In this document: positions 4,818-18,785 of the stretch, one piece after another
Layout: each line of letters starts with the position of its first letter
How positions within the stretch are numbered: the first letter of the stretch is position 1
NCBI RefSeq assembly: GCF_002161555.1
Contig: NZ_NFHZ01000003.1
Coordinates: forward strand, 124,001 to 188,000
From: Barnesiella sp. An55
Lineage (GTDB): Bacteria; Bacteroidota; Bacteroidia; Bacteroidales; Barnesiellaceae
Direction of reading: 5' to 3'
Length of the DNA: 64,000 bases
The notes under the pieces: model-generated
The model's database searches: none
Told to the model about the DNA's origin: nothing
The model's input: only the letters and a program-made list of their open reading frames with translations
Made by a program: the position numbers and the translations under genes

Positions 4818-6224
4818 TTAGATGCCGAGTATTTCCCGGCCACATGAAAGCAATCTTTTTACCTCATCATCTGATTGACCTTCGGCATAAAAACGGACGA
4901 TGTTTTCGGTTTCGGAGCTACGCATGAGAAGCCATCGACAAGGCCCCAGCAGGAATTTGAGCCCGTTGACGATACCGCGGCTGCTGAGGAATCGCTGCAC
5001 ATCGACGATAGGCCATTCACCTATCGATCCGGGGGTATGTTGCGACAGATGGGGCAACAGGTCGTTTTTGTCGGGACGGTCATACTTCAGGTCTATGCGA
5101 TCGTAGTGCACGAGGCCCAGGTCGCTCTGACGCATCTTGAAGTACTCCGACAATTTGGAGTATCCCGAGACCGCCAGCATCTCCAGCAGGAGTAACGACG
5201 AAAATACACCGTCTCGCTCAGGTATGTGCATGCCGTAGCCGAACCCTCCGCTCTCTTCACCTCCGAAGGCGATTTCGTGCTGAATCATGATATCGCAGAT
5301 ATATTTGAATCCTACTTGAACTTCATAAACGGGAGTCGCATCGTTGGCAAACAGCAGTCGTATCTTATCCGATACGGACGAAGTCTTTACGATACCACCC
5401 GGTGTCTGTTTTACTCGTTTCAGATAATCGACCAGCAGCAAGATGGTGTGCTGCGCCGAGAGCCATTCACCCGTGTCGAGGCATACACCCACCCGGTCGG
5501 CATCACCGTCGGTAGCCACGCCAAACGCGTAATTGCCGGCTTTTAATGCCTGAGTAAGGGGGGGCAGGTTTTTCTCAATGGGTTCGGGCGAACGTCCATA
5601 AAAATCGGTGGCTGGTTCGGCAAAAATGGTAGTAGCCGGGATGTTGTGTCGGGCGAGTATCTGCTCGGTGAGCCGTTGACCCGCGCCGCCCATGCTGTCG
5701 ATGAGCAGGTGTAGGTGCGTCGCCTTTATCTTGTCGAAGTCGATGAGCTGCTCGATATGACGAATATAGGCTTCGGTGAAATCCTGTTTGTCGATGAGGT
5801 CGGGCGATGCCACTACCGGCGAGTGATACAAGAGAGCTTCCACTTTCTTGGTCTCTTCGGTCGAGAAGGGGCCTCCGTAGTTCGACTTGAACTTGATACC
5901 GTTGTACTCCTTGGGATTATGCGAGGCGGTAATCATCACACCGGCATCACAGTGCATGTTCAGTACCGTGAAAGACAAGACCGGCGTGGGTATAATGCGG
6001 TCTGATAGAAGAACCTTTATCCCGTTACCGGTGAGAACCCGTGCAAAGACTTTCGCAAACGTGTCGGAATTCTTTCGGCTGTCATAACCGATAGCCACAA
6101 CGGGATTCTCTTTTTTATGGTGCAGATAATCACCGAAAGCTTGGGCAATCGTGGCAACCGAACTCTCATTGATCTGTGAGCCTTCTAAAGCTCTCCAACC
6201 ATCGGTTCCAAAGAATATTTTCAT
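4818..6224 (-). CDS. Phosphohexomutase (phosphoglucomutase/phosphomannomutase family)
   Basis: A 468-residue member of the alpha-D-phosphohexomutase superfamily, which moves phosphate between C1 and C6 of hexoses or N-acetylhexosamines. The phosphoserine loop ITASHNP places the catalytic serine at S101. The metal-binding loop DGDADR and the sugar-binding loop GGEESGG follow in the normal order. The start lies 2 bases after the nanE stop, so it is the third gene of the transporter-nanE-mutase operon. In that setting an N-acetylhexosamine phosphate (GlcNAc-6-P to GlcNAc-1-P) is an attractive substrate, but this is inferred from context; the motifs do not separate glucose, mannose and GlcNAc enzymes. 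Confidence 0.9.
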   Translation of the reverse strand: MKIFFGTDGWRALEGSQINESSVATIAQAFGDYLHHKKENPVVAIGYDSRKNSDTFAKVFARVLTGNGIKVLLSDRIIPTPVLSFTVLNMHCDAGVMITASHNPKEYNGIKFKSNYGGPFSTEETKKVEALLYHSPVVASPDLIDKQDFTEAYIRHIEQLIDFDKIKATHLHLLIDSMGGAGQRLTEQILARHNIPATTIFAEPATDFYGRSPEPIEKNLPPLTQALKAGNYAFGVATDGDADRVGVCLDTGEWLSAQHTILLLVDYLKRVKQTPGGIVKTSSVSDKIRLLFANDATPVYEVQVGFKYICDIMIQHEIAFGGEESGGFGYGMHIPERDGVFSSLLLLEMLAVSGYSKLSEYFKMRQSDLGLVHYDRIDLKYDRPDKNDLLPHLSQHTPGSIGEWPIVDVQRFLSSRGIVNGLKFLLGPCRWLLMRSSETENIVRFYAEGQSDDEVKRLLSCGREILGI

Positions 6225-6226
6225 GA

Positions 6227-6937
6227 CTAATGAGTTTGTGCTACGGTTTGTTTAATGGCATCGACATACCATTGGGTAATTATTTGTGGACGGGTAATCG
6301 AGGTCCCTACGATAACGGCCCAAGCACCCTCCTCGATAGCTTGTGCGGCATATTCGGGCTTGTTGAACCGGCCTTCGGCCATAATGGGGAATCCATGAGG
6401 TAACAGCCGTATGCATTCTTGCAGTACTCCGAAAGAGGGTTGCTTGTGGTTGACCGAAATTGTGTCGGAGGTATAACCACACAAGGTTGTCGATACGCAA
6501 TCGGCACCCGCTTCGTAACAGGCCACAGCTTCTTGCGGAGTCGCGATATCGGCCATAACCAGGATATCGGGGTGCATCTGTTTGATTTTGTGAATAAAGT
6601 CGGGTCCTGTATATATCTTTTCCCGTAGCCGATTTGTGCCATCGACCGCAATAAATGTGGCGTTTATGTTCAGCAATGCCTCTACTTCGGCGAACGATCC
6701 TGTTATGCGCACGAATCCATCGTCGAAGGTTGATTTGGTAAGGCAGATAACTGGTAACGATGTGTTTTGCATGATATAGAGGCTTTTTTCGACGCCGCAA
6801 CTCCTAATGCCGACGGCACCGCCCAGTTCGGCGCATCGAGCGAAGTCTCCTACACCTTTGGGCGTGTTGAACGGGGAGCCCTCTTCGGCTTGGCAAGAGA
6901 CAATGAGACCATTTCTGATTTTTTCTAACACAGTCAT
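6227..6937 (-). CDS. nanE: N-acetylmannosamine-6-phosphate 2-epimerase
   Basis: A 236-residue TIM-barrel enzyme of the NanE family, converting ManNAc-6-phosphate to GlcNAc-6-phosphate. Residues matching those described as catalytic or phosphate-binding in this family are present: R45 (VGIRSCG), K68 (ICLTK), D130 (MADI) and E188 (MAEGR), with the phosphate-binding end VIVGTSITRP. The ATG overlaps the stop of the transporter gene by 4 bases (6934-6937), so the two are translationally coupled. Many Bacteroides nan operons use an unrelated ManNAc epimerase that acts on the free sugar; this enzyme needs a phosphorylated substrate, which matters for reading the locus. No sialic-acid lyase or ManNAc kinase gene is nearby. 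Confidence 0.93.
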   Translation of the reverse strand: MTVLEKIRNGLIVSCQAEEGSPFNTPKGVGDFARCAELGGAVGIRSCGVEKSLYIMQNTSLPVICLTKSTFDDGFVRITGSFAEVEALLNINATFIAVDGTNRLREKIYTGPDFIHKIKQMHPDILVMADIATPQEAVACYEAGADCVSTTLCGYTSDTISVNHKQPSFGVLQECIRLLPHGFPIMAEGRFNKPEYAAQAIEEGAWAVIVGTSITRPQIITQWYVDAIKQTVAQTH

Positions 6938-8181
6938 ATTGAATAAGCTCTTTTATGATGTTTGTAATATATGAATATCAACAGGAGTAGCGAGGCCAGC
7001 GCCGACAGTATCCAGAACAGACGGATGAATGAGAAGTCGATAACCTCTACTCCATTGATAATTTGTTTGCGGCTCTCGATAAAAAATCCGCTCATGATAT
7101 CCTGGATTCCGGCTGCCATATAGCTGGCAACGCCTATTACACCTACGGCAGCACCCGCAGCAGTTTTGGGGGCCAGGTCTATGGCCATGAGTCCACCCAG
7201 GTAGCAAATGAGTATGCCAATGGATATTCCGAAGAGTACCATGGCCGTAATATCTATGATTTTACCGCCATTGGGGATGAATAGAAAAAGACATAGGGCA
7301 ATGAGGTTTAGGGCGCTGGCTATGCAGGCTGGGGCATATCGTTGTCCCTTGAACAGCTTGTCGGAGAGTAGCCCCGACGATACGGTGCCGATAATTCCGC
7401 ATACCGAACTGATGGAGATGAGCGTACTGGCCTCGAGTATGGAGTAGTGTTTCTCGACTTCGAAGTAGTAAACGCCCCAACTGTTTACCGCATAACGACT
7501 GATGTACATAAAGGCACTGGCCAGGGCCAGTAACCAAATGGAGCTGTTCCTGAGTACGCCTAATTGGTTTTTACCAATCTCTTTTTGGCTGGTAGGTCTG
7601 ATATCATTTGACGCATTTTGTGGGAAAGGTTTTAGAAAAATAAAGATGAGTACTGCTCCCACGATACCGAGGATGCCGGCGTTGATGAATCCATATTGCC
7701 ACCCGGCCAGACTTACTATCGAGGCAATAAATATAAAAGTAAAAGCTTCGCCTATGTTGTGGCTGGCACTCCAGAACCCATAGACCGTACCGCGTTGCTT
7801 GTCGCCAAACCAACGGTTCAGGGCAATGGCACTGCAGGGGCCGCCGAGTGACTGTACCCACCCGTTGATACCCCAGAGTATGACAAACACACCAAACAGT
7901 ACATGGAACCCCAGTGTGATGTTGAGGATCGCTGCCATCAGCAGTCCTCCTGCCATTAAAAAACGGATGTTCAAACGGTCGGCCAAGAACCCGTTTACAA
8001 ATTTCCCTATCGCGTACGAAAAGAAAAGTGCTCCACCGATGATACCCAACTGGGTCTCGGTCAAGTAGCCCGAATCGACAATGGGTTTCTTGACTACATT
8101 TATACTTAAACGGCACACATAGAACAGACTATACCCCAGTGTGGTAATAAGAAATATAATCCATTTGTAATTCTTTTTCAC
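6934..8181 (-). CDS. MFS transporter of the organophosphate:phosphate antiporter (GlpT/UhpT) type
   Basis: A 415-residue, 12-helix inner-membrane protein. It aligns by eye with E. coli GlpT along its whole length, including the DRxNxR loop (DRLNIR) between helices 2 and 3 and the APKTAAGAAVG segment before helix 11. The three GlpT residues known to hold phosphate are kept: R24 (YVCRLS, GlpT R45), H141 (ASHNIG, GlpT H165) and R229 (ISRYAV, GlpT R269). This suggests import of a phosphorylated compound in exchange for phosphate rather than a free sugar. It is the first gene of a three-gene operon with nanE and a phosphohexomutase, transcribed from a promoter at 8215-8245. Likely cargo: a hexosamine phosphate (inference). 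Confidence 0.88.
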   Translation of the reverse strand: MKKNYKWIIFLITTLGYSLFYVCRLSINVVKKPIVDSGYLTETQLGIIGGALFFSYAIGKFVNGFLADRLNIRFLMAGGLLMAAILNITLGFHVLFGVFVILWGINGWVQSLGGPCSAIALNRWFGDKQRGTVYGFWSASHNIGEAFTFIFIASIVSLAGWQYGFINAGILGIVGAVLIFIFLKPFPQNASNDIRPTSQKEIGKNQLGVLRNSSIWLLALASAFMYISRYAVNSWGVYYFEVEKHYSILEASTLISISSVCGIIGTVSSGLLSDKLFKGQRYAPACIASALNLIALCLFLFIPNGGKIIDITAMVLFGISIGILICYLGGLMAIDLAPKTAAGAAVGVIGVASYMAAGIQDIMSGFFIESRKQIINGVEVIDFSFIRLFWILSALASLLLLIFIYYKHHKRAYSI

Positions 8182-8347: not shown

Positions 8348-8476
8348 TGGTTTATAGTGTGTTAATATGTGCCTGTGTTAAGAAGTATTGATTGTAAAAG
8401 TCTTAAAATAGGTTTGAAACATATTTGAAATATATTTGGAATCGAACATATATTAGAAAAATATTTATATAAATAC

Positions 8477-8507
8477 TTTGTAGTTTTAAATTTTATTGCT
8501 TTATTTG
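8477..8507 (+). promoter_or_regulatory. Promoter for the SusC/SusD operon
   Basis: TTTG (8477-8480), a 19-base spacer and TTTATTTG (8500-8507) match the Bacteroidetes promoter with one mismatch in the -7 box. Transcription would start near 8514, leaving a leader of about 57 bases before the ATG at 8571. Confidence 0.5.
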
Positions 8508-8570: not shown

Positions 8571-10751
8571 ATGAAAAAGAACATTTTACTATCATTACTA
8601 TTTATTGAAGCAATTTTTATTGCGAATGCTCAGATAAAACCGGGCGGTGTATCGGGTTCGGTGCTTTGGCTGCGAGCCGACAAAGGTGTAACAGTAGATG
8701 CCGAGAATAAGTTGGTGAGTCCGTATTGGGAGGACTTTTCTGATGAGAAACAGGGAATCGAGCTTTTCCAGAAAGAAGATGGAGGCTTGGAATCGTTGGT
8801 GTTGAAAGAGAATGGAGTCAATGGTAACCCGACAGTTTATTTCAACGGAAAAGTGGCGCTGAAGGGTCTGGAAGATAAAAACTACCAATCGGTATTTGCC
8901 GTCTATTCGGCCAACTTGACTACCGAGAACAATTCGGAGTCAACGGTTCTGTCTATTCAGGAGAAAGGGGTTACCGATTATGGTAACCGGGAAGATCTGG
9001 CTTTTTTCCAGACCTATAAAATAGGATCGAATTCGACACCTACTTGGTTGGTTTCCGATGGTGTTAATTCTTATTGGGGCACACGTTCGACGACGGTTGT
9101 TGACAAAGCAACAGGTTTTCATTCTTGCTTTGCTGCTTTTGGGAATGTCGAGGGCGATATGGTGACGCTGGATGGAGGTCTGTTCAGTGTGTTGACTCGT
9201 TTTGTCTCCACCCCTTCCAAGGAGGGAATCTTCTATGTGGGAGTGAGTGTTGCCGGGACAACCAAGATAGGAAAATGGCTCGAAGGAGATATCGCTGAGG
9301 TAATAGCCTTCGATCGTTTGGTAACCGATGAGGAGAGATATAAGATAGAGTCGTATCTGGCAGCCAAATATGGTATTACACTGATCAAGTCGAGTTCGTC
9401 GAATCCTGTAAAGGTATCGGGAACTCCCAGCTATAACTATACATACATGAGCAGTACGGGTGAGACCTGGTGGGCCGGCGAATCGACCGATTATGCACCG
9501 TATAGCAATTACATCGCCGGTATCGTGCGCGACGATGCTTCGGGGTTGATGCAATCCAAATCGACCGGGCGCATAGGTTACTCTTTGGATAAGGAAGGGG
9601 GTATATTGACTATCTCGAACGGTAGTTCTTTTGCCGAGCCCGAAGCCATTGCCGAAGATGGTCAGTTTGCATTTGTGGGAGCTACCTCCGATGCTTTGGA
9701 CGAGACGGAATCTGTTCGGGTAATCAACGACGAAGGTAAGGAAATCGCTTGCAAGGTTCTGACGCGGACCTGGAAGATTAACATGTCGGGTATTCACACC
9801 GTCAGTCTGCAATTTGCCTTCTCATCCGAGATGGTCAATCTGTTGGCCGAGACTCCCAAAGTAGGTCTGCTTAAGAATGGAAGCGAATTTATTCCGCTTG
9901 AATATGATGAGGAGAATATGACCATGACCGCTGATGGAATAGAGTTGACCACAGGCGATACCTTTACCGTAGTAGTCGATTATATTGACAAACCGCAAAT
10001 CAATAGTACCTCACAGAAGGTATGTTTGGAATCGACCATTTCGCTGTCGGCAGTTCCCGAAGGTGGAGTTTGGTCGGGCAACGGTGTCGAAGGCAATACG
10101 TTCAATGCCCTCACTGCAGGTTTGGGTGAGCACACGGTAGTCTATACCTTGAACAGCATGAGCGATAGCATTGTATTTACGGTCGAAGAGAGTATCACAC
10201 CCGAAGTCGTGTTGGTATCGAATACTACCGAATCGGAAGAGTGGGACGCCATTGTCATCGAGGCACAAACGGTAACCGGTGGCGAGAGCCCGTTGTTTCA
10301 GTTTGCACTCGACGATCCCGAGTTTGTCTATCCGCTCGACATCTATTCATCGAACAATGTATTGCGTCTGGCCGGCTATCAGCTTACCGAAGGGGTGCAC
10401 ACGGTATATGTGCGCATGAAGAGCTCTTTGCCTTGTGTCACCCAAGAGTTGGCTACCGCTCAAATCGAGATTAGCAAGACGGCTACGGGTATTGTGGTGG
10501 CTCAGCAGGCCTCTGTGGCATGTTTCCCCAATCCGTTCGACAGCGAAATCAATATCAACGGCCTCGACAGTGACAAAGATTATATCATGAACTTCTTCTC
10601 GAGCAATGGGGAACTGGTAGGTTCGGTGGTTTGTGCTGCCGGTCAAAGCCGCATCGAGGCGCCGCAATTGAGTGTTGGGGTATATATTGTACAAATCATC
10701 GAACAGGATTCGCGAGAGAAAGTTGCCGTGATACAACTGCTGAAACAATAG
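8571..10751 (+). CDS. Secreted lectin-like surface protein with T9SS type A sorting domain
   Basis: 726 residues. The ATG at 8571 is chosen because it begins a good signal peptide (MKKNILLSLLFIEAIFIANA); the frame extends upstream only to a TTG inside the promoter. Residues about 25-270 look like a concanavalin/LamG-type jelly-roll (VLWLRADKGV, GNPTVYFNG, GDIAEVIAFDR). A middle domain (IAGIVRDDASGLMQSKS, then TRTWKIN) resembles those of gliding-type adhesins. An Ig/PKD-like segment follows (VCLESTISLSAVPEGGVWSG). The last 80 or so residues (CFPNPFDSEININGL ... GVYIVQI ... VAVIQLLKQ) match a type A C-terminal sorting domain of the type IX secretion system. It probably binds glycan at the cell surface. 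First gene of the SusC/SusD operon; no catalytic motif seen. Confidence 0.8.
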   Translation: MKKNILLSLLFIEAIFIANAQIKPGGVSGSVLWLRADKGVTVDAENKLVSPYWEDFSDEKQGIELFQKEDGGLESLVLKENGVNGNPTVYFNGKVALKGLEDKNYQSVFAVYSANLTTENNSESTVLSIQEKGVTDYGNREDLAFFQTYKIGSNSTPTWLVSDGVNSYWGTRSTTVVDKATGFHSCFAAFGNVEGDMVTLDGGLFSVLTRFVSTPSKEGIFYVGVSVAGTTKIGKWLEGDIAEVIAFDRLVTDEERYKIESYLAAKYGITLIKSSSSNPVKVSGTPSYNYTYMSSTGETWWAGESTDYAPYSNYIAGIVRDDASGLMQSKSTGRIGYSLDKEGGILTISNGSSFAEPEAIAEDGQFAFVGATSDALDETESVRVINDEGKEIACKVLTRTWKINMSGIHTVSLQFAFSSEMVNLLAETPKVGLLKNGSEFIPLEYDEENMTMTADGIELTTGDTFTVVVDYIDKPQINSTSQKVCLESTISLSAVPEGGVWSGNGVEGNTFNALTAGLGEHTVVYTLNSMSDSIVFTVEESITPEVVLVSNTTESEEWDAIVIEAQTVTGGESPLFQFALDDPEFVYPLDIYSSNNVLRLAGYQLTEGVHTVYVRMKSSLPCVTQELATAQIEISKTATGIVVAQQASVACFPNPFDSEININGLDSDKDYIMNFFSSNGELVGSVVCAAGQSRIEAPQLSVGVYIVQIIEQDSREKVAVIQLLKQ

Positions 10752-10784
10752 TAATTGATTATCCCCCAAATCTGATAAAGTATC

Positions 10785-13700
10785 ATGAAAATATATCGAA
10801 TTATATTTCTCTTTCTTTTTGGGTTGTTTGCCGCCGGGAGTCTCCCGGCGCAAACTCCGGGAAGAATGATTACCGGAACCGTGACCGATCCCAAGGGCGA
10901 GACCCTTATCGGGGTATCGGTTGTCGTGAAGAACAAGTCGGTTCAGACGATTACCGATGTCAACGGAAAGTACAGGATTAAGGCTGCTCCGCAAGATACG
11001 CTGGTCTTTTCGTATATAGGTATGGAGACCAAGGAATACTATGTAAAGAACAGAAAGGAGATAAACGCCATTCTGGAAGAGAAGGAACAGTCGATGAAGG
11101 AGGTGGTCGTTATTGGTTATTCGACCCAGCAGCGCAAGGATGTGACCGGTGCCATCTCGTCGCTGAAGATAAAAGACGACTTGTCGGCTTCGTATTCCTC
11201 ATTCGACCAGATGTTGCAAGGGCAGTTGAGCGGTGTGCAGGTGCAGTCGGTCTCGGGAACTCCCGGAGCCGGAGGTGCCGTGCGCATCAGAGGTGTGGGG
11301 TCGATTAACGGAGGTAATGACCCGTTGTATGTAATCGACGGCATCCCCATGGATACCGAGGATGGTTCGGAGTTGACTGACCTTTTTGGTGCCTCCTACC
11401 AGTCGCCTTTGTCGCTGATAGACCCTTCGGATATCGAGTCGATCGATGTACTCAAAGATGCTGCAGCCGCTTCGATATATGGATCGCGGGCTACCAATGG
11501 TGTCATTCTTATTACCACCAAGAAAGGACGCACGGGTCGTACCAGTTTCTCGGTGAATATGTCGAGTGGCATCAGCCAGGTACACAATTTGCCCGAGATG
11601 GCCGATACCGATTTGTATCTCACGGTTATGAACGAGGCATACAGCAATTACAATCGTGACAACAATTATCAGCCGGGCGATCCCGGGTACCAGCCTTTGC
11701 TGGAAGACCCTCGGGGACCCGACTATCCCGGCGACTACGATTGGGTACGGCTTCCGTTTAGAGACGATACGCCAGTTACCCAGCGTTATTCGATATCGAT
11801 GCGAGGGGGGTCGCGCGACACGAAATTCTATACGGCTCTGTCGTATTACGATCAGGAGGGTATCATCAAGACCAATCGGTTGAGACGTATCAACTTCAGG
11901 TCAAATATCGACCACATTATCTCGTCCAAAGTGAATTTTGGGGTAACTATCGGTTTGGCTCACTCGATTAACAATCGGGTACCCAGTGAAAACGGGAATT
12001 ATGGTTATATTTTGCGGTCGTTCCCTCAACGGCCTTTCGATCGCCCCTACAAGGAGGATGGCTCATATGCGATAGGTGGTGTTGATTTGCGCTATCACAA
12101 TGTGCAGGCAATGGTCAATGAATCGACCTCAGACTATAAGATATATCAGGCCAATGCCTCTACCTATTTGAATTGGAAGTTGACGAAAGATTTGATATAC
12201 AAGCCGCAATTGAGCTTGATTTTCAACACGAACAACGACTTTTACAACCGCACGACCGATTTCCCCAATATGGATTCATACAACGGTTACACTCGGGAGT
12301 CACGCTCGACAGCCATCCGGTATGTGTTGCAGCATACGTTGACCTACAAGACCCTCATTAAGGAACGCCTGGGGTTGACCGCCATGGCCGGGCAGTCTTA
12401 TGAACATTATAATCGTTCCTATGTGGTGGCCAGTGGATGGGACTTCCCCACGAAAGAGTTTACCTACATTCGGTCGGCCGCTTCGTTTGGGGCTAACGGT
12501 TATGCCTATGCCAGCACGTTGATTTCCCATTTCGGACGATTGGATTTGAGTTGGGACGACAAGTATCTGCTATCGGCTACGGTGCGAGCCGACGGTTCGT
12601 CCAAGTTTCCCAAAGGGGGAATGTGGGGTGTATTCCCCTCGGCCTCGGTTTCGTGGCGCATCAGCAAAGAGAATTTTATGAAGGGATTCGATGCCATCAA
12701 CGATTGGAAATTCCGATTGAGTTGGGGTATGACTGGCGAGCAATCGGGGGTAGGCTATTACACGGCCCAGCGTTATATGGGTGCCGAGGCCCCCTATTAC
12801 GGTTCGGCCGGTATTACGCTCGAGAGTCCGGGTAACGATCAGTTGAGTTGGGAGAAAGCCGAGCAGATAAACATCGGTACCGATGCCGTCTTGTTTAATG
12901 ATCGGTTGAATGTATCGCTCGATTATTATATAAAAAACACTCATGGTCTGCTCTTCAACAAGCCCATGCCGGCCACCTATGGCTACAAGACCAAACTGGT
13001 GAATATCGGTCGTATGCAGAACTCGGGGTTTGAATTGACCCTGAAGACCGTGAATGTGAAGTCGCGCAACTTTGAGTGGACCTCCAACCTGTCGTTTACT
13101 ACCCTTAAAAACGAGGTGAAACAGTTGATGGAGGGAAATAAACCGGTTTATGTGGGTAATTACCACATCCTGGAGATTGGCAAGCCCGTAGGTTCGTTCT
13201 ATCTGTACAAGCAGGAGGGTATCTATCAGTATGACGAGGAGGTCCCCGAAAATCTCTATAAGAGCGGGGTCAGAGCCGGAGATATGAAGTATGCCTTGGA
13301 TGAGAACGGGAATCCCGTGCGCATGATTGTGGGCAAAGCTATGCCCGACTGGTATGGAGGTTTTACCAATACGTTTAAGTTTTATGGGTTTGACCTGAAT
13401 GTTTCGCTTTCGTTCCAATATGGCAATGATATTTTGAATATCTTCCGCAGTGGTTATTCCGACCGCTTGGGGCAGATGGATGCCAATATGTTGAAAGAGA
13501 GTGCCGAGAATCGGTGGACCGGCCCAGGTACGAGCAACACCTATCCCCGGGCCCTGTTCAACTCGGAGTATAACAACATGGCATCGGATCGTTACCTCGA
13601 AGACGGGTCGTTCTTGAAATTGAGAGAGATTACGTTGGGATATACTCTGCCTGTCGATTGGGTGAAGCATTTGAAGCTGAAATATTTGCGCATATATGCT

Positions 13701-13847
13701 ACGGCGCAGAACCTGCTGACATGGACCAAGTATTCGGGAATGGATCCCGAGGTGAGCTACACGCTTTCGCCTAGAGAGATGGGTCAGGATTTCTTCGGTA
13801 CGCCCAATCCTAGAATGTATTTGGTAGGTCTTTCACTAAACTTCTAA
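10785..13847 (+). CDS. SusC-like TonB-dependent outer-membrane glycan transporter
   Basis: 1020 residues, the normal SusC length. Order: signal peptide (cleavage after SLPAQ), a carboxypeptidase-like beta-sandwich (ITGTVTDPKGETLIGVSVVVK), the TonB-box region (KEVVVIGYSTQQRKDVTGAIS), a plug with the SusC signature (VRIRGVGSINGGNDPLYVIDGIP), then a 22-strand-type barrel ending in LNF. It imports oligosaccharide across the outer membrane using TonB energy, with the SusD-like protein 5 bases downstream acting as its lid. It starts 33 bases after the lectin-like gene. No N-terminal STN signalling domain is present, so control is more likely through the ROK regulator than through an anti-sigma relay. 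Confidence 0.96.
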   Translation: MKIYRIIFLFLFGLFAAGSLPAQTPGRMITGTVTDPKGETLIGVSVVVKNKSVQTITDVNGKYRIKAAPQDTLVFSYIGMETKEYYVKNRKEINAILEEKEQSMKEVVVIGYSTQQRKDVTGAISSLKIKDDLSASYSSFDQMLQGQLSGVQVQSVSGTPGAGGAVRIRGVGSINGGNDPLYVIDGIPMDTEDGSELTDLFGASYQSPLSLIDPSDIESIDVLKDAAAASIYGSRATNGVILITTKKGRTGRTSFSVNMSSGISQVHNLPEMADTDLYLTVMNEAYSNYNRDNNYQPGDPGYQPLLEDPRGPDYPGDYDWVRLPFRDDTPVTQRYSISMRGGSRDTKFYTALSYYDQEGIIKTNRLRRINFRSNIDHIISSKVNFGVTIGLAHSINNRVPSENGNYGYILRSFPQRPFDRPYKEDGSYAIGGVDLRYHNVQAMVNESTSDYKIYQANASTYLNWKLTKDLIYKPQLSLIFNTNNDFYNRTTDFPNMDSYNGYTRESRSTAIRYVLQHTLTYKTLIKERLGLTAMAGQSYEHYNRSYVVASGWDFPTKEFTYIRSAASFGANGYAYASTLISHFGRLDLSWDDKYLLSATVRADGSSKFPKGGMWGVFPSASVSWRISKENFMKGFDAINDWKFRLSWGMTGEQSGVGYYTAQRYMGAEAPYYGSAGITLESPGNDQLSWEKAEQINIGTDAVLFNDRLNVSLDYYIKNTHGLLFNKPMPATYGYKTKLVNIGRMQNSGFELTLKTVNVKSRNFEWTSNLSFTTLKNEVKQLMEGNKPVYVGNYHILEIGKPVGSFYLYKQEGIYQYDEEVPENLYKSGVRAGDMKYALDENGNPVRMIVGKAMPDWYGGFTNTFKFYGFDLNVSLSFQYGNDILNIFRSGYSDRLGQMDANMLKESAENRWTGPGTSNTYPRALFNSEYNNMASDRYLEDGSFLKLREITLGYTLPVDWVKHLKLKYLRIYATAQNLLTWTKYSGMDPEVSYTLSPREMGQDFFGTPNPRMYLVGLSLNF

Positions 13848-13852
13848 CCAGT

Positions 13853-15196
13853 ATGAGTATGAAAAAATTGAAATTTATAATCGCACTTCCTGTTTTTCTG
13901 CTTGTCTCGTCGTGCAATTTCCTGCTGGATGAGACCCCTGTTGATACGCTTCAGGAAGATGAGCTCACGGCAGAACATATCCAGAGCCTTGTTCGGGGTG
14001 TCTATCACACGTTGGCCGATTGTACACCGGCAGGCCTTATCCTGAATGATTGCTTGGGTGAGACTATCGAGAATAATGCCAACAACGGTAGTTTGGTCAA
14101 TGCCAATATCGCACATAATAACTTCATGGCCGACAATAGTTTTGTAGAGAACTATTACTACTACTTGTACAGTGTGATACATCAGGCCAATTATGTAATT
14201 AATTTCTTGAACACCAAGGCCGACCTTACCGACGAGCGTAACGTGCAGATGATAGGTTCGCTCCACTATCTGCGGGCCTACTGCTACCTGAAACTGGTGA
14301 CCCAGTTTGGCGATGTGCCTATTGTGACTCAGGTGACCGAAGATGTAGTGCCGCGTTCGCCAGCTGCCGATGTGTGGCAGCGTATTAAGGACGATTTGGC
14401 CATAGCTGCCGACCAGTGCCGTGCCTGGGATCAGGCTCCGCCCGAAGATCCTACGGCAGCGCGTTATTATTACTACGCTTCGACCGAGGCGGCTTCGGCC
14501 CTGCTGGCTCGGGTCTATCTTTATAACCGAGAGTATAACAAAGCCAAAGCGATTGCCCGCACATTCCTGGAAGACCAGCGGTTTCAGATGGTATCGGCTA
14601 ACAGCTTAGGGGCTGCAGCCGTAGGTGTGGGAGCCAAAGAGCTCATCATGTGTATCTCGAACAATACAGGAGCCTATTTTTACCGAAACATTTTCAACAC
14701 TTATGCCATGACTCCGTCGGGTTCCTATCAGTTCAAGCCCACCCAGTCGTTTATCGACTCGGTTGACCCTGATGATGCTCGTTATACGGTATGTATAGGG
14801 TTGAGCCCCGATGGATATACGACTGTCAACAAGTTTAACTACAATGCAGTGAGCACATGTCCCTTTACGATATCGCGGTTTACCGAGATGTATCTGATTT
14901 TTGCCGAGTGTGCTCCCGATGAGTCGGGACTGGCCAAACTGAATGAGTTGCGTGCCGCGAGAAACTTGCCCCCTCTGGATAAGAAAATTCTCGATAATCC
15001 CAGTCAGTATGTCGATGCTATACTCGATGAGAGGAAAATCGAATTTTACGGAGAGAATCAGTATTTTTACGATTTGGTTCGGTTGGGCAAGGCTTTGGAA
15101 CGACTGGTTTATACCAAGAGCGAATATCAGTTCCTGTTGCCTATTCCGCAGAGTCAGGTCAATCTGGGGTTGAAGCAGAACCCGGGATATCTTTAA
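13853..15196 (+). CDS. SusD-like glycan-binding lipoprotein
   Basis: 447 residues, at the short end for SusD proteins (usually 480-600). The lipobox LVSSC puts the lipidated cysteine at C21; an ATG two codons in (13859) is an equally good start. The family's features are there: TETSG-like N-terminal helices with TPR character (LHYLRAYCYLKLVTQFGDVPIV), and the conserved C-terminal block (ILDERKIEFYGENQYFYDLVRLGKALE). It binds the glycan at the surface and closes over the adjacent SusC barrel. The pairing is unambiguous; the ligand is unknown. Confidence 0.95.
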   Translation: MSMKKLKFIIALPVFLLVSSCNFLLDETPVDTLQEDELTAEHIQSLVRGVYHTLADCTPAGLILNDCLGETIENNANNGSLVNANIAHNNFMADNSFVENYYYYLYSVIHQANYVINFLNTKADLTDERNVQMIGSLHYLRAYCYLKLVTQFGDVPIVTQVTEDVVPRSPAADVWQRIKDDLAIAADQCRAWDQAPPEDPTAARYYYYASTEAASALLARVYLYNREYNKAKAIARTFLEDQRFQMVSANSLGAAAVGVGAKELIMCISNNTGAYFYRNIFNTYAMTPSGSYQFKPTQSFIDSVDPDDARYTVCIGLSPDGYTTVNKFNYNAVSTCPFTISRFTEMYLIFAECAPDESGLAKLNELRAARNLPPLDKKILDNPSQYVDAILDERKIEFYGENQYFYDLVRLGKALERLVYTKSEYQFLLPIPQSQVNLGLKQNPGYL

Positions 15197-15217
15197 TACC
15201 TTAAAAACACATTGAAT

Positions 15218-16348
15218 ATGAATTATAAGATAGTTGCATTTTTTCTTGGATTTGCCTGTTTGAGTCTTGCGGCCAACGCCCAGCAGGAGATTAAATGGTG
15301 GAATCCGCAAGGCTCGGCCATCAATGCCATCGAAGGGCAGGGCTGGCAGGGCGAGTATGAGAGTTTTTACGATCGGTTGCCCTTGCGAGCTAAGTCGGTT
15401 GTGCGTCCTGCCGTGTGGGCGCGGTCTAAGTTTTCGTCGGGTCTGACGATTCGTTTCAAGACCAATTCGCCTCATATCCAGGTACGTTATAAAGTTGCAG
15501 GGCGTCTCACGTTGCCCACCATGCCGGCGGTTGCTGCCAGTGGGGTCGATTTGTATGCCGTGGTGGGCGACAAGTATTATTGGTGCCGGCCGGCTACGAC
15601 ATTTCGCGATACAATAGTCTATAAATATACGGGGTTGAAACCCACACCCGGCTATTACGATGAAGGGGTGGAATATAAACTTTTCTTACCCCCATACAAT
15701 AGTATTCTCTCTTTGGAGATAGGGGTGTATAAAGACAAGATGTTTATGCCCCTTGTCCCCCGTGATGAACTACCTATCGTGGTTTACGGCACCTCGATTA
15801 CACAGGGCGGGTGTGCCAGCCGTCCCGGTATGACATGGACTTCGATATTACAACGGCATCTAAATCGGCCAGTAATCAATTTGGGATTTTCAGGAAACGG
15901 TCGGCTGGAGCCCGAGGTTATCAATCTCGTTTGTGAGTTGGATGCTGCCGTATATGTGTTGGATTGTTTGGCCAACTTGACCTCCGCGAAGTTGTATGAC
16001 AACGAAAAACTCGGAGCTCTTATCATGGATGCTGTAAAGGATATCCGGGCCAAGCACCCCGATACTCCCATTGTGCTCACCGACCACGACGGTTATACCA
16101 GTGGTTTCGAGGGAGCGGTCTCGCAGCGGCGGTATTACAATTATTACAGTAGGGTAAACAAGGTGATGGACAAGGCTTTTGCCAAACTGAAGAAACAGGG
16201 AGTCAAGCAGATCTATCATCTCACCCACGACGATATAGACCAGTCGCCCGATGGGAAAGTCGATGGCACTCACCCCAACGACTTGGGTATGATGCGCATT
16301 GCAACAGCTTATGAAAAGATAATACGAGAAATATTAAACGAAAAGTGA
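15218..16348 (+). CDS. Secreted SGNH/GDSL esterase with GxDLY N-terminal domain
   Basis: 376 residues from the ATG at 15218 (a TTG two codons earlier is ignored). Signal peptide MNYKIVAFFLGFACLSLAANAQ. An N-terminal beta-sandwich carrying the GVDLY signature is followed by an SGNH hydrolase domain: block I GTSITQGG with catalytic S193, block III GFSGNG with the oxyanion asparagine, and block V DGTHPND with D349 and H352. This two-domain type removes acyl groups (usually acetyl) from carbohydrates. Sitting directly after SusC/SusD, it probably deacetylates the imported glycan in the periplasm or at the surface. An O-acetylesterase of sialic acid (NanS-like) is an alternative role. All active-site residues are present. 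Confidence 0.88.
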   Translation: MNYKIVAFFLGFACLSLAANAQQEIKWWNPQGSAINAIEGQGWQGEYESFYDRLPLRAKSVVRPAVWARSKFSSGLTIRFKTNSPHIQVRYKVAGRLTLPTMPAVAASGVDLYAVVGDKYYWCRPATTFRDTIVYKYTGLKPTPGYYDEGVEYKLFLPPYNSILSLEIGVYKDKMFMPLVPRDELPIVVYGTSITQGGCASRPGMTWTSILQRHLNRPVINLGFSGNGRLEPEVINLVCELDAAVYVLDCLANLTSAKLYDNEKLGALIMDAVKDIRAKHPDTPIVLTDHDGYTSGFEGAVSQRRYYNYYSRVNKVMDKAFAKLKKQGVKQIYHLTHDDIDQSPDGKVDGTHPNDLGMMRIATAYEKIIREILNEK

Positions 16349-16350
16349 TT

Positions 16351-17184
16351 ATGAAAAGAGCAAGTTTGTTGATTGTTGTTTTGCTGCTGGCTCTGTTGCC
16401 GTTGATGGCACAGCAACAGCAGGGTAACTTCAAGATTTTGTGCTATAATGTATTGCACGGTTTTGAGAGCGATCCTGCGGTCATGGATAAGTATGTCAAT
16501 TGGGTCAAGACAGTGGATCCCGATATTGTAGCTTTCCAAGAGATGAACAAGTTTACCGAACAGTCATTGAAAGAACTGGCTGCCCGGTATGGCCACTATT
16601 ATTCGGCCATTTCGAAGGAAAACGGATACCCGGTTGCCATTACATCGAAGTATCCCATACGTGATCTTATCAAGGTCGATGACCACATGGAGCACGGGTA
16701 TATGTATGCTAAAATTGACGATATCAACTTGTTTGTCGTGCATCTCTCGTCGTGGAGCGTTTTTCTGAGGCAGAAGGAGATAAAGCGCATTTTGGCACAT
16801 GCGGCCTTGATTCCTGAAACCGAGAAGATTGTCATTGCCGGTGATTTCAATTCGTTGTGCGAGACCGACTCGTTGACGCACCAGGATGGCTATGTCGATC
16901 GGCTGAAACGTCGGGAGCAGAAAGACCCCCGTTATAAAGCTCTCAACAACGGGAAGCTCGACTATTCGGTTATCAACACGGTGAAAGAGGCCGGATATGT
17001 CGATGCATTTTTGATGTTTCACGATGCCTTTACCCGGGCATTTCCCAAACATTTGCGCAGGGTCGATTATGTGTGGCTGAATCCGCAATTGGCCAAATAT
17101 GCCGTTTCGGCAGAATTTATTTATGACGATAAGAATAATGAGATATCAGACCATTTTCCACTATTAGTAAACTTCAAAATGTGA
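16351..17184 (+). CDS. Exported endonuclease/exonuclease/phosphatase-fold hydrolase
   Basis: 277 residues from the ATG at 16351, which follows the esterase stop by 2 bases; an in-frame GTG at 16345 is less likely. Signal peptide RASLLIVVLLLALLPLMAQ. The metal-dependent EEP fold is complete: N33 (LCYNVLHG), E64 (FQEMN), GDFNS, RVDYVW, and SDHFP with H268 near the C-terminus. Family members cleave phosphodiesters or phosphomonoesters in nucleic acids, lipids and sugars. As the last gene of a SusC/SusD operon whose divergent partner encodes a phosphate-ester importer, a glycan phosphodiesterase or sugar phosphatase fits best (inference). A nuclease cannot be excluded. Confidence 0.85.
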   Translation: MKRASLLIVVLLLALLPLMAQQQQGNFKILCYNVLHGFESDPAVMDKYVNWVKTVDPDIVAFQEMNKFTEQSLKELAARYGHYYSAISKENGYPVAITSKYPIRDLIKVDDHMEHGYMYAKIDDINLFVVHLSSWSVFLRQKEIKRILAHAALIPETEKIVIAGDFNSLCETDSLTHQDGYVDRLKRREQKDPRYKALNNGKLDYSVINTVKEAGYVDAFLMFHDAFTRAFPKHLRRVDYVWLNPQLAKYAVSAEFIYDDKNNEISDHFPLLVNFKM

Positions 17185-17530: not shown

Positions 17531-17564
17531 CCTTTTATATAAAATGGTTAAAGGAGTAAAACGC

Positions 17565-18785
17565 ATGGATAATAGTTCGATATACGGGGTAGATACCAAA
17601 AAACTCCTTATAAAAAAGAGTATTATCAACTTTTATATTTATAACAAAGATGCGACTATCGCCGATCTTTCTAAGGAATTTAATCTGAGCGGTCCAACTG
17701 TGGCAAAGATTATTTCGGAGATGATTGACGAAGGCTTTATTATAGATTATGGTAAGTTGAAGACTTGCAGTGGTGGTCGTCGCCCCAATCTATATGGCTT
17801 GAATCCAGAATCGGGTTATTTCGTGGGGGTAGATATTAAAAAGTTTGGGGTGAATATAGGAATTGTCAACTTCAAAGGCGATATAATTGATCTCCAGACT
17901 AATATTCCTTTCAAGAACGATAACACGATAGACTCGTTCGATACGTTGTGCGAAATCATACAGACCTTTATCAACAAGCACAAGTCTATTCGCAATAAAA
18001 TATTGAATATCAATGTCAATCTCTCGGGCCGGGTCAATGCTGAGTCGGGGTACAGCTACAGTAAATTCTACTTTGGCGAACGTCCGCTTACCGATCTCTT
18101 TTATGAGAAGCTGGGCTATCGGGTTTTTATCGACAATAATACCCGGGCCATGCTTTACGGCGAGTATATGAGCAATAATACCAACAATGCCAAGAACATT
18201 ATATTCGTTAACATTAGTTGGGGCTTGGGTATAAGCATCATGATGAACGGACAGTTATATTACGGTGAATCGGGATTCGCTGGTGAGTTTGGACACATGA
18301 GTGTGTTTGACAATGAAGAGTTGTGTCATTGTGGAAAGAAAGGTTGTTTGGAGACCGAGACTTCGGGGTCGGCAATACACCGTATCTTTGTGAAGCGTGT
18401 ACTCAATGGTGAAAACTCTATTCTCTCGGCGGCAATCAAGGAGGGACAGGATGTCACGTTGAGCGACATTATCGATGCTGTTAATAAGGAGGATATCCTG
18501 GCGATTGATATCATCGAGGAGGCTGGCAATAAGTTGGGTAAATATATTGCAGGGCTGATTAATATTTTCAACCCGGGGCTGGTTATCATTGGGGGAGAGT
18601 TGTCCCAGACGGGCGATTATATAAGCTTGCCCATTATCAGTGCCATTAATAAATACTCACTCAATCTGGCAAATAAGGATTCGGTGATTACCCTCTCGAA
18701 ACTGAAAGATAAGGCCGGTGTGATTGGTGCCTGCATGTTGGCGCGCAACAACTATCTCAAGTTGTCACAAATCGGGTATAAATAA
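17565..18785 (+). CDS. ROK-family transcriptional regulator (NagC/XylR type)
   Basis: 406 residues from the ATG at 17565, which has AAAGGAG 7 bases upstream; an in-frame ATG at 17544 lacks a leader. An N-terminal winged helix-turn-helix (ATIADLSKEFNLSGPTVAKIISEMIDEGFI) is joined to a ROK sugar-kinase-like domain: ATP-type loop VDIKKFG, sugar-binding EFGHMSV, zinc site CHCGKKGC and IIGGELS. ROK repressors such as E. coli NagC sense N-acetylhexosamine phosphates. The gene lies just after an operon set that should produce ManNAc-6-P and GlcNAc-6-P, so it is probably the local regulator. It has its own promoter. An effector is not shown by the sequence. Confidence 0.9.
   Translation: MDNSSIYGVDTKKLLIKKSIINFYIYNKDATIADLSKEFNLSGPTVAKIISEMIDEGFIIDYGKLKTCSGGRRPNLYGLNPESGYFVGVDIKKFGVNIGIVNFKGDIIDLQTNIPFKNDNTIDSFDTLCEIIQTFINKHKSIRNKILNINVNLSGRVNAESGYSYSKFYFGERPLTDLFYEKLGYRVFIDNNTRAMLYGEYMSNNTNNAKNIIFVNISWGLGISIMMNGQLYYGESGFAGEFGHMSVFDNEELCHCGKKGCLETETSGSAIHRIFVKRVLNGENSILSAAIKEGQDVTLSDIIDAVNKEDILAIDIIEEAGNKLGKYIAGLINIFNPGLVIIGGELSQTGDYISLPIISAINKYSLNLANKDSVITLSKLKDKAGVIGACMLARNNYLKLSQIGYK

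Follow-up and report, generated by a model that had tools for sequence, protein, structure and literature searches.

Why should a glycan-uptake operon begin with a gene whose product carries a sorting tail for type IX secretion (T9SS)? The binders and endo-acting enzymes of Sus systems are described as surface lipoproteins, and T9SS has usually been a separate field of study. If it is true that T9SS cargo regularly partners SusCD in these Bacteroidales, nutrient uptake by one and the same apparatus depends on both export routes. The locus lies in a stretch of 64,000 nucleotides from Barnesiella sp. An55, hereafter the window (G+C content 52%), and the searches described below covered the genome to which it belongs (3.03 Mb in 49 contigs). 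The head gene of the operon and the parts of its product are as follows:

8571 to 10751, plus strand: head gene, encoding a 726-residue T9SS type A cargo protein (ATG at 8571; the stop codon ends at 10751)
8571 to 8630, plus strand: predicted signal peptide, residues 1-20, read by eye (MKKNILLSLLFIEAIFIANA, followed by Q)
8640 to 9386, plus strand: N-terminal domain, residues 24-272, assigned by a 13-domain alignment to a concanavalin A-like/LamG-related Bacteroidota family
9387 to 9935, plus strand: middle region of no recognised family, residues 273-455, matched only by orthologues among the loci compared
9936 to 10220, plus strand: repeat judged Ig-like by eye, residues about 455-550, with matches in many genomes
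10515 to 10748, plus strand: T9SS type A C-terminal sorting domain, residues 649-726 (PF18962, TIGR04183, PDB 8glk_D)

An in-frame TTG at 8496 offers an alternative start; the ATG at 8571 is favoured because a normal signal peptide then stands at the beginning of the protein. This signal peptide reads as a plain Sec-type one with no lipobox, and the first 40 residues of the protein contain no cysteine. At the other extremity, the original prediction had recognized a type A sorting signal, and sequence comparison confirms that the tail is a real T9SS sorting domain. Indeed, PF18962 matches it with 30.3 bits (E 5.2e-7; cut-off 27), and FPNPF, GVYIVQI and a basic residue near the end are all in place. 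The other sorting profile, TIGR04183, gives 25.0 bits in a whole-genome search, which passes its cut-off of 23, and 21.7 bits, just below it, when the head protein is scanned alone with hmmscan. An HMM made from eight other tails of the same genome recovers this one among the ORFs scanned (E 4e-7), and phmmer against the PDB returns one plausible match, an Endonuclease I chain (8glk_D, 75 residues) that aligns with residues 649-719 (E 0.0018). The tail is also kept in an orthologue with 86% identity (L014, from an uncultured Bacteroidales bacterium, contig CASFYQ010000005.1). Pfam finds no PF16411 domain in the head protein and no DUF1735 either, and neither Pfam nor NCBIfam finds a catalytic family. 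On lipoprotein signal and gene order the protein is unlike the SusE/SusF family, since it has no lipobox and its gene precedes susC.

The genome encodes a T9SS. Profile searches find SprA (2883 bits), PorL (214 bits), PorM (547 bits), PorN (224 bits), PorV (520 bits), PorQ (406 bits), a PorP-family protein (246 bits), the PorZ propeller (126 bits) and two PorU sortases in tandem (1079 and 897 bits), both far over the PorU cut-off. The sorting domain itself has 70 matches in the genome at E<=0.001, 60 of them over the cut-off, and 17 of the 70 score below the head-protein tail in the same search. Since the T9SS genes are present and the sorting profile matches, neither of the two results named beforehand as contrary to the original prediction (a genome devoid of T9SS genes, a tail without a profile match) was obtained. 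The attachment complex consists of PorU, PorV, PorQ and PorZ, and because all four genes are present, attachment of the head protein to the cell surface via T9SS is possible. The tandem PorU genes, at L062:3877-7305 and 8799-12206 (C49 of the same genome), are followed by the gene for PorV.

The head gene is, as had been proposed, the first gene of a SusC/SusD operon, which faces a divergent operon. The surrounding features are these:

8409 to 8416, plus strand: possible Bacteroidota -7 element TAGGTTTG, of the TAnnTTTG pattern, in the divergent intergenic region
8431 to 8438, plus strand: second possible -7 element TATATTTG, of the TAnnTTTG pattern, in the same intergenic region
10785 to 13847, plus strand: SusC-type TonB-dependent transporter (TIGR04056, 878.5 bits)
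13853 to 15196, plus strand: SusD-type lipoprotein (PF07980, 69.7 bits; PF14322, 67.4 bits)
15212 to 16348, plus strand: SGNH/GDSL esterase with a GxDLY N-domain (PF14606, 205 bits; PF14607, 145 bits; PDB 4lhs)
16345 to 17184, plus strand: secreted protein of the endonuclease/exonuclease/phosphatase (EEP) fold, possibly a phosphodiesterase (PF03372, 67.8 bits)
17544 to 18785, plus strand: ROK-family regulator of the NagC/Mlc type (PF00480, 185.9 bits; N-terminal HTH)
6934 to 8181, minus strand: organophosphate antiporter-like MFS transporter, divergent (TIGR00881, 225 bits, below the cut-off of 407.75)
6227 to 6937, minus strand: N-acetylmannosamine-6-phosphate 2-epimerase, divergent (NF002231, 229.9 bits, over the cut-off of 189)
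4818 to 6224, minus strand: member of the phosphohexomutase family, divergent (TIGR03990, 278 bits, below the cut-off of 439; PDB 1tuo)

We take TAnnTTTG to be the -7 motif of Bacteroidota, and the two elements are candidates only. From the head gene through SusC, SusD and the SGNH esterase to the EEP-fold gene, the successive gaps are 33, 5, 15 and -4 bp, with the SusC and SusD genes adjacent to each other; the ROK regulator begins 359 bp past the EEP-fold gene. SusD is the sole lipoprotein among the five gene products by a simple lipobox pattern, Pfam detects no glycosidase in the five-gene operon, and the EEP-fold protein has no PDB relative at E<=1e-5. The block of two operons is kept in one congener of the eight compared (G004), at 78-95% identity per protein, and this is also the extent of the head protein's distribution among them (a full-length orthologue in 1 of 8).

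The divergent operon (4818-8181) suggests a phosphosugar or ManNAc-containing substrate. From the esterase, the EEP-fold protein, the antiporter-like transporter, the mutase and the epimerase taken together, we infer that the operon may serve an O-acylated, phosphate-containing amino-sugar glycan. The SGNH esterase would strip acyl groups from this glycan, the EEP-fold protein would cut its phosphodiesters, and the antiporter, mutase and epimerase would channel a sugar phosphate towards amino-sugar metabolism. We also considered a sialic acid locus, on the grounds that NanU is the best NCBIfam match of the SusD protein and that an epimerase gene adjoins (for NanOU of T. forsythia, see PMC3969230). 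It was set aside: the NanU match (54 against a cut-off of 425) reflects the SusD superfamily only, and inspection of the block by eye revealed no lyase gene.

What could the head protein do at the front of such an operon? Proteins from other families of the order supply 11 domains that can be aligned with residues 24-272, with 21-28% identity, and the alignment displays conserved W, D and G residues and a closing motif, GDIAEVI...IE.YLA.KYGI. Laminin_G_3 matches 6 of the 13 aligned domains at E<=0.1 (best E 2.8e-7), and in one protein of the family (L068) the LamG profile match exceeds the cut-off. Another (L067, 615 residues) shares the N-terminal domain and likewise bears a tail over the Pfam cut-off. 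The window's own N-domain is not matched by Laminin_G_3, and Pfam reports no LamG in the head protein up to a limit of E 5 (at which HMMER filters drop most matches above 0.1). The PDB contains nothing at E<=1 for the 13-domain profile, nor a credible relative of the head protein outside its tail. AlphaFold2, given a two-sequence input each time, returned a mean pLDDT of 31.9 for the full protein and 30.9 for residues 21-300. A weak match to ERp29_N/ERp29 was dismissed as due to chance, since it does not reach the Pfam cut-off and the family is unrelated in kind. The Ig-like repeat is widespread in Bacteroidales proteins. Thus, the earlier description of the head protein as lectin-like, drawn from remote homology within the family of its N-domain, is plausible but weak: the window's own copy of the domain has neither a Laminin_G_3 nor a PDB match, and AlphaFold2 was uninformative.

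T9SS cargo encoded directly before susC is a recurrent arrangement in the genus. The genome of the window has 16 SusC genes, one of them split into two frames, and 3 of the 16 are directly preceded, on the same strand, by a gene whose product has a tail scoring above the TIGR04183 cut-off; in a fourth case (C3, 438 residues) the tail is seen by a local HMM only (E 6e-3). Across nine genomes SusC has 157 matches at E<=1e-60, 140 of them outside the window's own genome. The upstream DNA of the best 100 of these 140, from eight congeners, formed the sample, which leaves aside the orthologous G004 locus (read separately as L060) and 39 lower-scoring or unlisted matches; 5 of the 100 stretches are shortened by contig ends. 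A tail was counted when the iterated local HMM gave E<0.01 in a gene on the same strand and within 450 nt of susC. By this measure, 20 of these 100 best congener SusC genes have a tailed gene directly upstream, and each of the eight congeners contributes at least one of the 20. Because the local HMM had been iterated on the same stretches and is therefore not independent, all 20 were rescanned with NCBIfam: 16 exceed the TIGR04183 cut-off, and the others are L128 (no match), L131 (15.0), L156 (20.5) and L183 (13.6). The other genes of the same stretches comprise 18 tailed ORFs out of 221, a difference with p 0.004 that overstates independence because orthologues recur among the rows. Binomial figures were set aside, as they depend on an assumed total of about 2,500 genes. 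Most of the SusC genes examined have no tailed head, and some operons of the window's genome begin with untailed enzymes (GH97, GH5).

The split SusC gene mentioned above lies at L059:7449-10450 (C46:11448-14449). Its break falls near model position 184 and is a frameshift, an assembly error or a switchable site.

The heads belong to six families that do not resemble one another over their full length (BLAST 1e-5): the window type, a SusE/F type, a LamG-GH18 type, proteins with the ELWxxDGT repeat (TIGR04534, 206-276 bits), proteins of 428-430 residues, and weakly tailed proteins of 438-446 residues. Five of the six have at least one member over a curated tail cut-off; in the 438-446-residue family none of the members scanned (L047, L128, L131) passes that of TIGR04183, and L127, which also belongs there, was left out of the count. 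The window type and the LamG-GH18 heads may share a LamG-type domain. The latter are represented in the window's genome by an 852-residue protein of C47 (tail 25.8 bits by TIGR04183 and 14.2 by Pfam, cut-off 27), preceded in turn by a 328-residue protein whose tail, at 21.2, is just under the cut-off. Two T9SS cargo genes thus stand in a row before SusC (L048:10871-14501), and the product of the inner gene combines two LamG stretches with a GH18 domain. This GH18-carrying head is probably an enzyme, so that the head position does not by itself prove binding.

The SusE/F heads deserve particular attention, since the original prediction had placed the head protein outside the usual SusE/F lipoprotein scheme, an idea that SusF_SusE proteins with T9SS tails illustrate most clearly. 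In C48, a SusCD operon is headed by a 454-residue SusF_SusE protein (L046:5252-6616; C48:106251-107615) with 72.4 bits for PF16411 and a tail of 25.2 bits by TIGR04183 and 18.9 by Pfam (cut-off 27). Its signal peptide, read by eye, has an early cysteine with no good lipobox context. A SusE/F-type lipoprotein and a T9SS-tailed GH31 enzyme are encoded in the same operon, which is of the starch type judging by the presence of GH31 and SusE/F. This head is kept in 6 of the 8 congeners at 67-86% identity, with all six tails over the cut-off, and so occurs in 7 of the 9 genomes of the genus; in the other two, none of the SusC stretches examined contained it. A second tailed SusE/F protein of the window's genome (441 residues; L220:9736-11061, C2:121735-123060) scores 55.4 bits for PF16411 and 31.4 bits for the tail and has a signal peptide with no cysteine; its gene directly follows that of an 867-residue tailed protein, and no SusC gene adjoins it within the stretch read. 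A third, from a locus that also encodes SusC and SusD, lies outside the genus (G018). It is the only tailed one among 30 PF16411 loci examined, 23 of which show a lipobox by a simple pattern (the frame picked is possibly wrong for about two); the search for PF16411 proteins gave matches in 42 of 198 genomes. For the operon in the window, an arrangement outside the lipoprotein scheme is supported in that none of its genes encodes a SusE/F-type lipoprotein by the simple lipobox pattern. A general replacement of SusE/F is not, because the same genome also has SusE/F-type lipoproteins, one of them beside the tailed SusE/F head. Overall, the original interpretation is partly supported.

T9SS cargo within polysaccharide loci is known, and what look new are the head position and the fusion of SusE/F domains to T9SS tails; on T9SS-tailed SusE/F proteins, or T9SS cargo fixed before susC, we found no report in the open-access literature. 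With type A cargo of the gingipain type, the head protein shares the signal peptide, the sorting domain and the translocon and attachment genes, and it differs in that its gene heads a SusCD operon. BT3986, a lipid-anchored binder with DUF1735 and LamG, belongs to a group of DUF1735 proteins that occupy the susE-F position, and BT3987 carries GH18 (PMC11216935). With SusE/SusF and BT3986 the head protein would share the role proposed here, in which a protein with a LamG-type domain serves a SusCD locus as accessory binder (PMC11216935); unlike them, it has no lipobox, DUF1735 or PF16411, bears a T9SS tail, and is encoded before susC and not after susD. The inner protein of C47 differs from the BT3986/BT3987 pair in combining LamG and GH18 in one T9SS-tailed protein. 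The C-terminal domains of BACON-domain proteins include T9SS tails as well (PMC11216935). The chitin locus of F. johnsoniae offers T9SS cargo within a SusCD locus, namely ChiA, which, unlike the binder proposed here, is an enzyme secreted by T9SS and released in soluble form (PMC5127042). The Pus clusters of F. johnsoniae likewise have SusCD-like genes beside phosphomono- and diesterases, and one of them, PUSIII, encodes two proteins with a T9SS domain; these clusters are induced by phosphate depletion and have FecR-like and sigma-factor regulators, as against the ROK regulator of the window (PMC8115612). Elsewhere, T9SS-tailed cellulases are described in one rumen member of the Bacteroidales, which is devoid of PULs (PMC5831590), a cellulase-alginate lyase carries a T9SS tail (PMC13235733), and in the gut family S24-7 the majority of genomes possess T9SS (PMC4936053).

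The reading that we favour, and consider probable, is that the head protein is a surface glycan binder delivered by T9SS to serve the SusCD pair encoded behind it. Judging from its sequence, it would be exported by Sec and lose its signal peptide. As these components are commonly understood to act, its C-terminal domain would guide it through SprA, PorU would cleave it, and PorU, PorV, PorQ and PorZ, the genes for all of which are present, would attach it to the cell surface. There, the concanavalin A-like N-domain, held out on Ig-like spacers, would capture the substrate, an activity suggested by remote homology, and would hand it to SusD and SusC, as the operon suggests.

Three other explanations have to be weighed against this one. 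The head protein might be a T9SS surface adhesin or matrix protein of the ordinary sort, sharing the promoter of SusCD and having no part in uptake. Relatives of its N-domain and Ig-like repeat do occur in further proteins of the order, which are often very large, and the presence of a full-length orthologue in a single congener speaks for this reading as well. However, both genomes that possess the gene have it immediately ahead of susC, and other susC genes are preceded in the same way by different T9SS cargo, in one case of the SusE/F family, so that we regard an adhesin as unlikely. An enzyme, released or held at the surface, which would trim the substrate before uptake by means of a concanavalin A-like scaffold with unrecognised hydrolase or esterase activity, appears quite unlikely. 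Concanavalin A-like folds include glycosidases, the five-gene operon has none that Pfam detects, and another head carries GH18. Against this, the head protein itself has no catalytic family by Pfam or NCBIfam. The soluble release of ChiA, a T9SS enzyme within a PUL, counts both in favour of an enzyme and against a binder retained at the surface (PMC5127042). Finally, the tail could be degenerate and the protein periplasmic, as the hmmscan score of 21.7 against 23 might hint. The Pfam score over its cut-off, the intact motifs, the conservation of the tail in the 86% identical orthologue and the lower scores of 17 of the 70 tails of the genome make this very improbable.

If the head protein is such a binder, the same division of labour may recur across the genus with other cargo families. 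A broader and more tentative proposal, which we hold to be doubtful, is that in the genus T9SS supplies the outermost, glycan-capturing layer of many Sus systems. Binder and enzyme modules, SusE/F included, would repeatedly have exchanged a lipid anchor for a T9SS tail and become fixed before susC, and the resulting Sus complexes would have an outer layer that is anchored by T9SS and not via the outer-membrane lipoprotein pathway. The window operon would be one such case, dedicated to an O-acylated phosphosugar polymer. The tailed SusE/F proteins open the partnership of T9SS cargo and SusCD to a direct test, since they share a genome with lipoproteins of the same family, which have been studied in detail.

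Across the order, relatives of the window SusC were sought in 149 genomes, with at most five candidates scored per genome, and gave 15 matches in 13 of them. Within flanks of 1.5 kb, a tailed gene lies directly upstream only in the window and in its orthologue; outside the genus, none of the 13 closest other SusC matches has one directly before it. At three of these SusC relatives, from three other genera (L214, L215, L216), a different tailed gene is found further upstream. The intervening gene, read by eye, encodes a regulator of the GntR/UTRA type, and in L216 two genes intervene.
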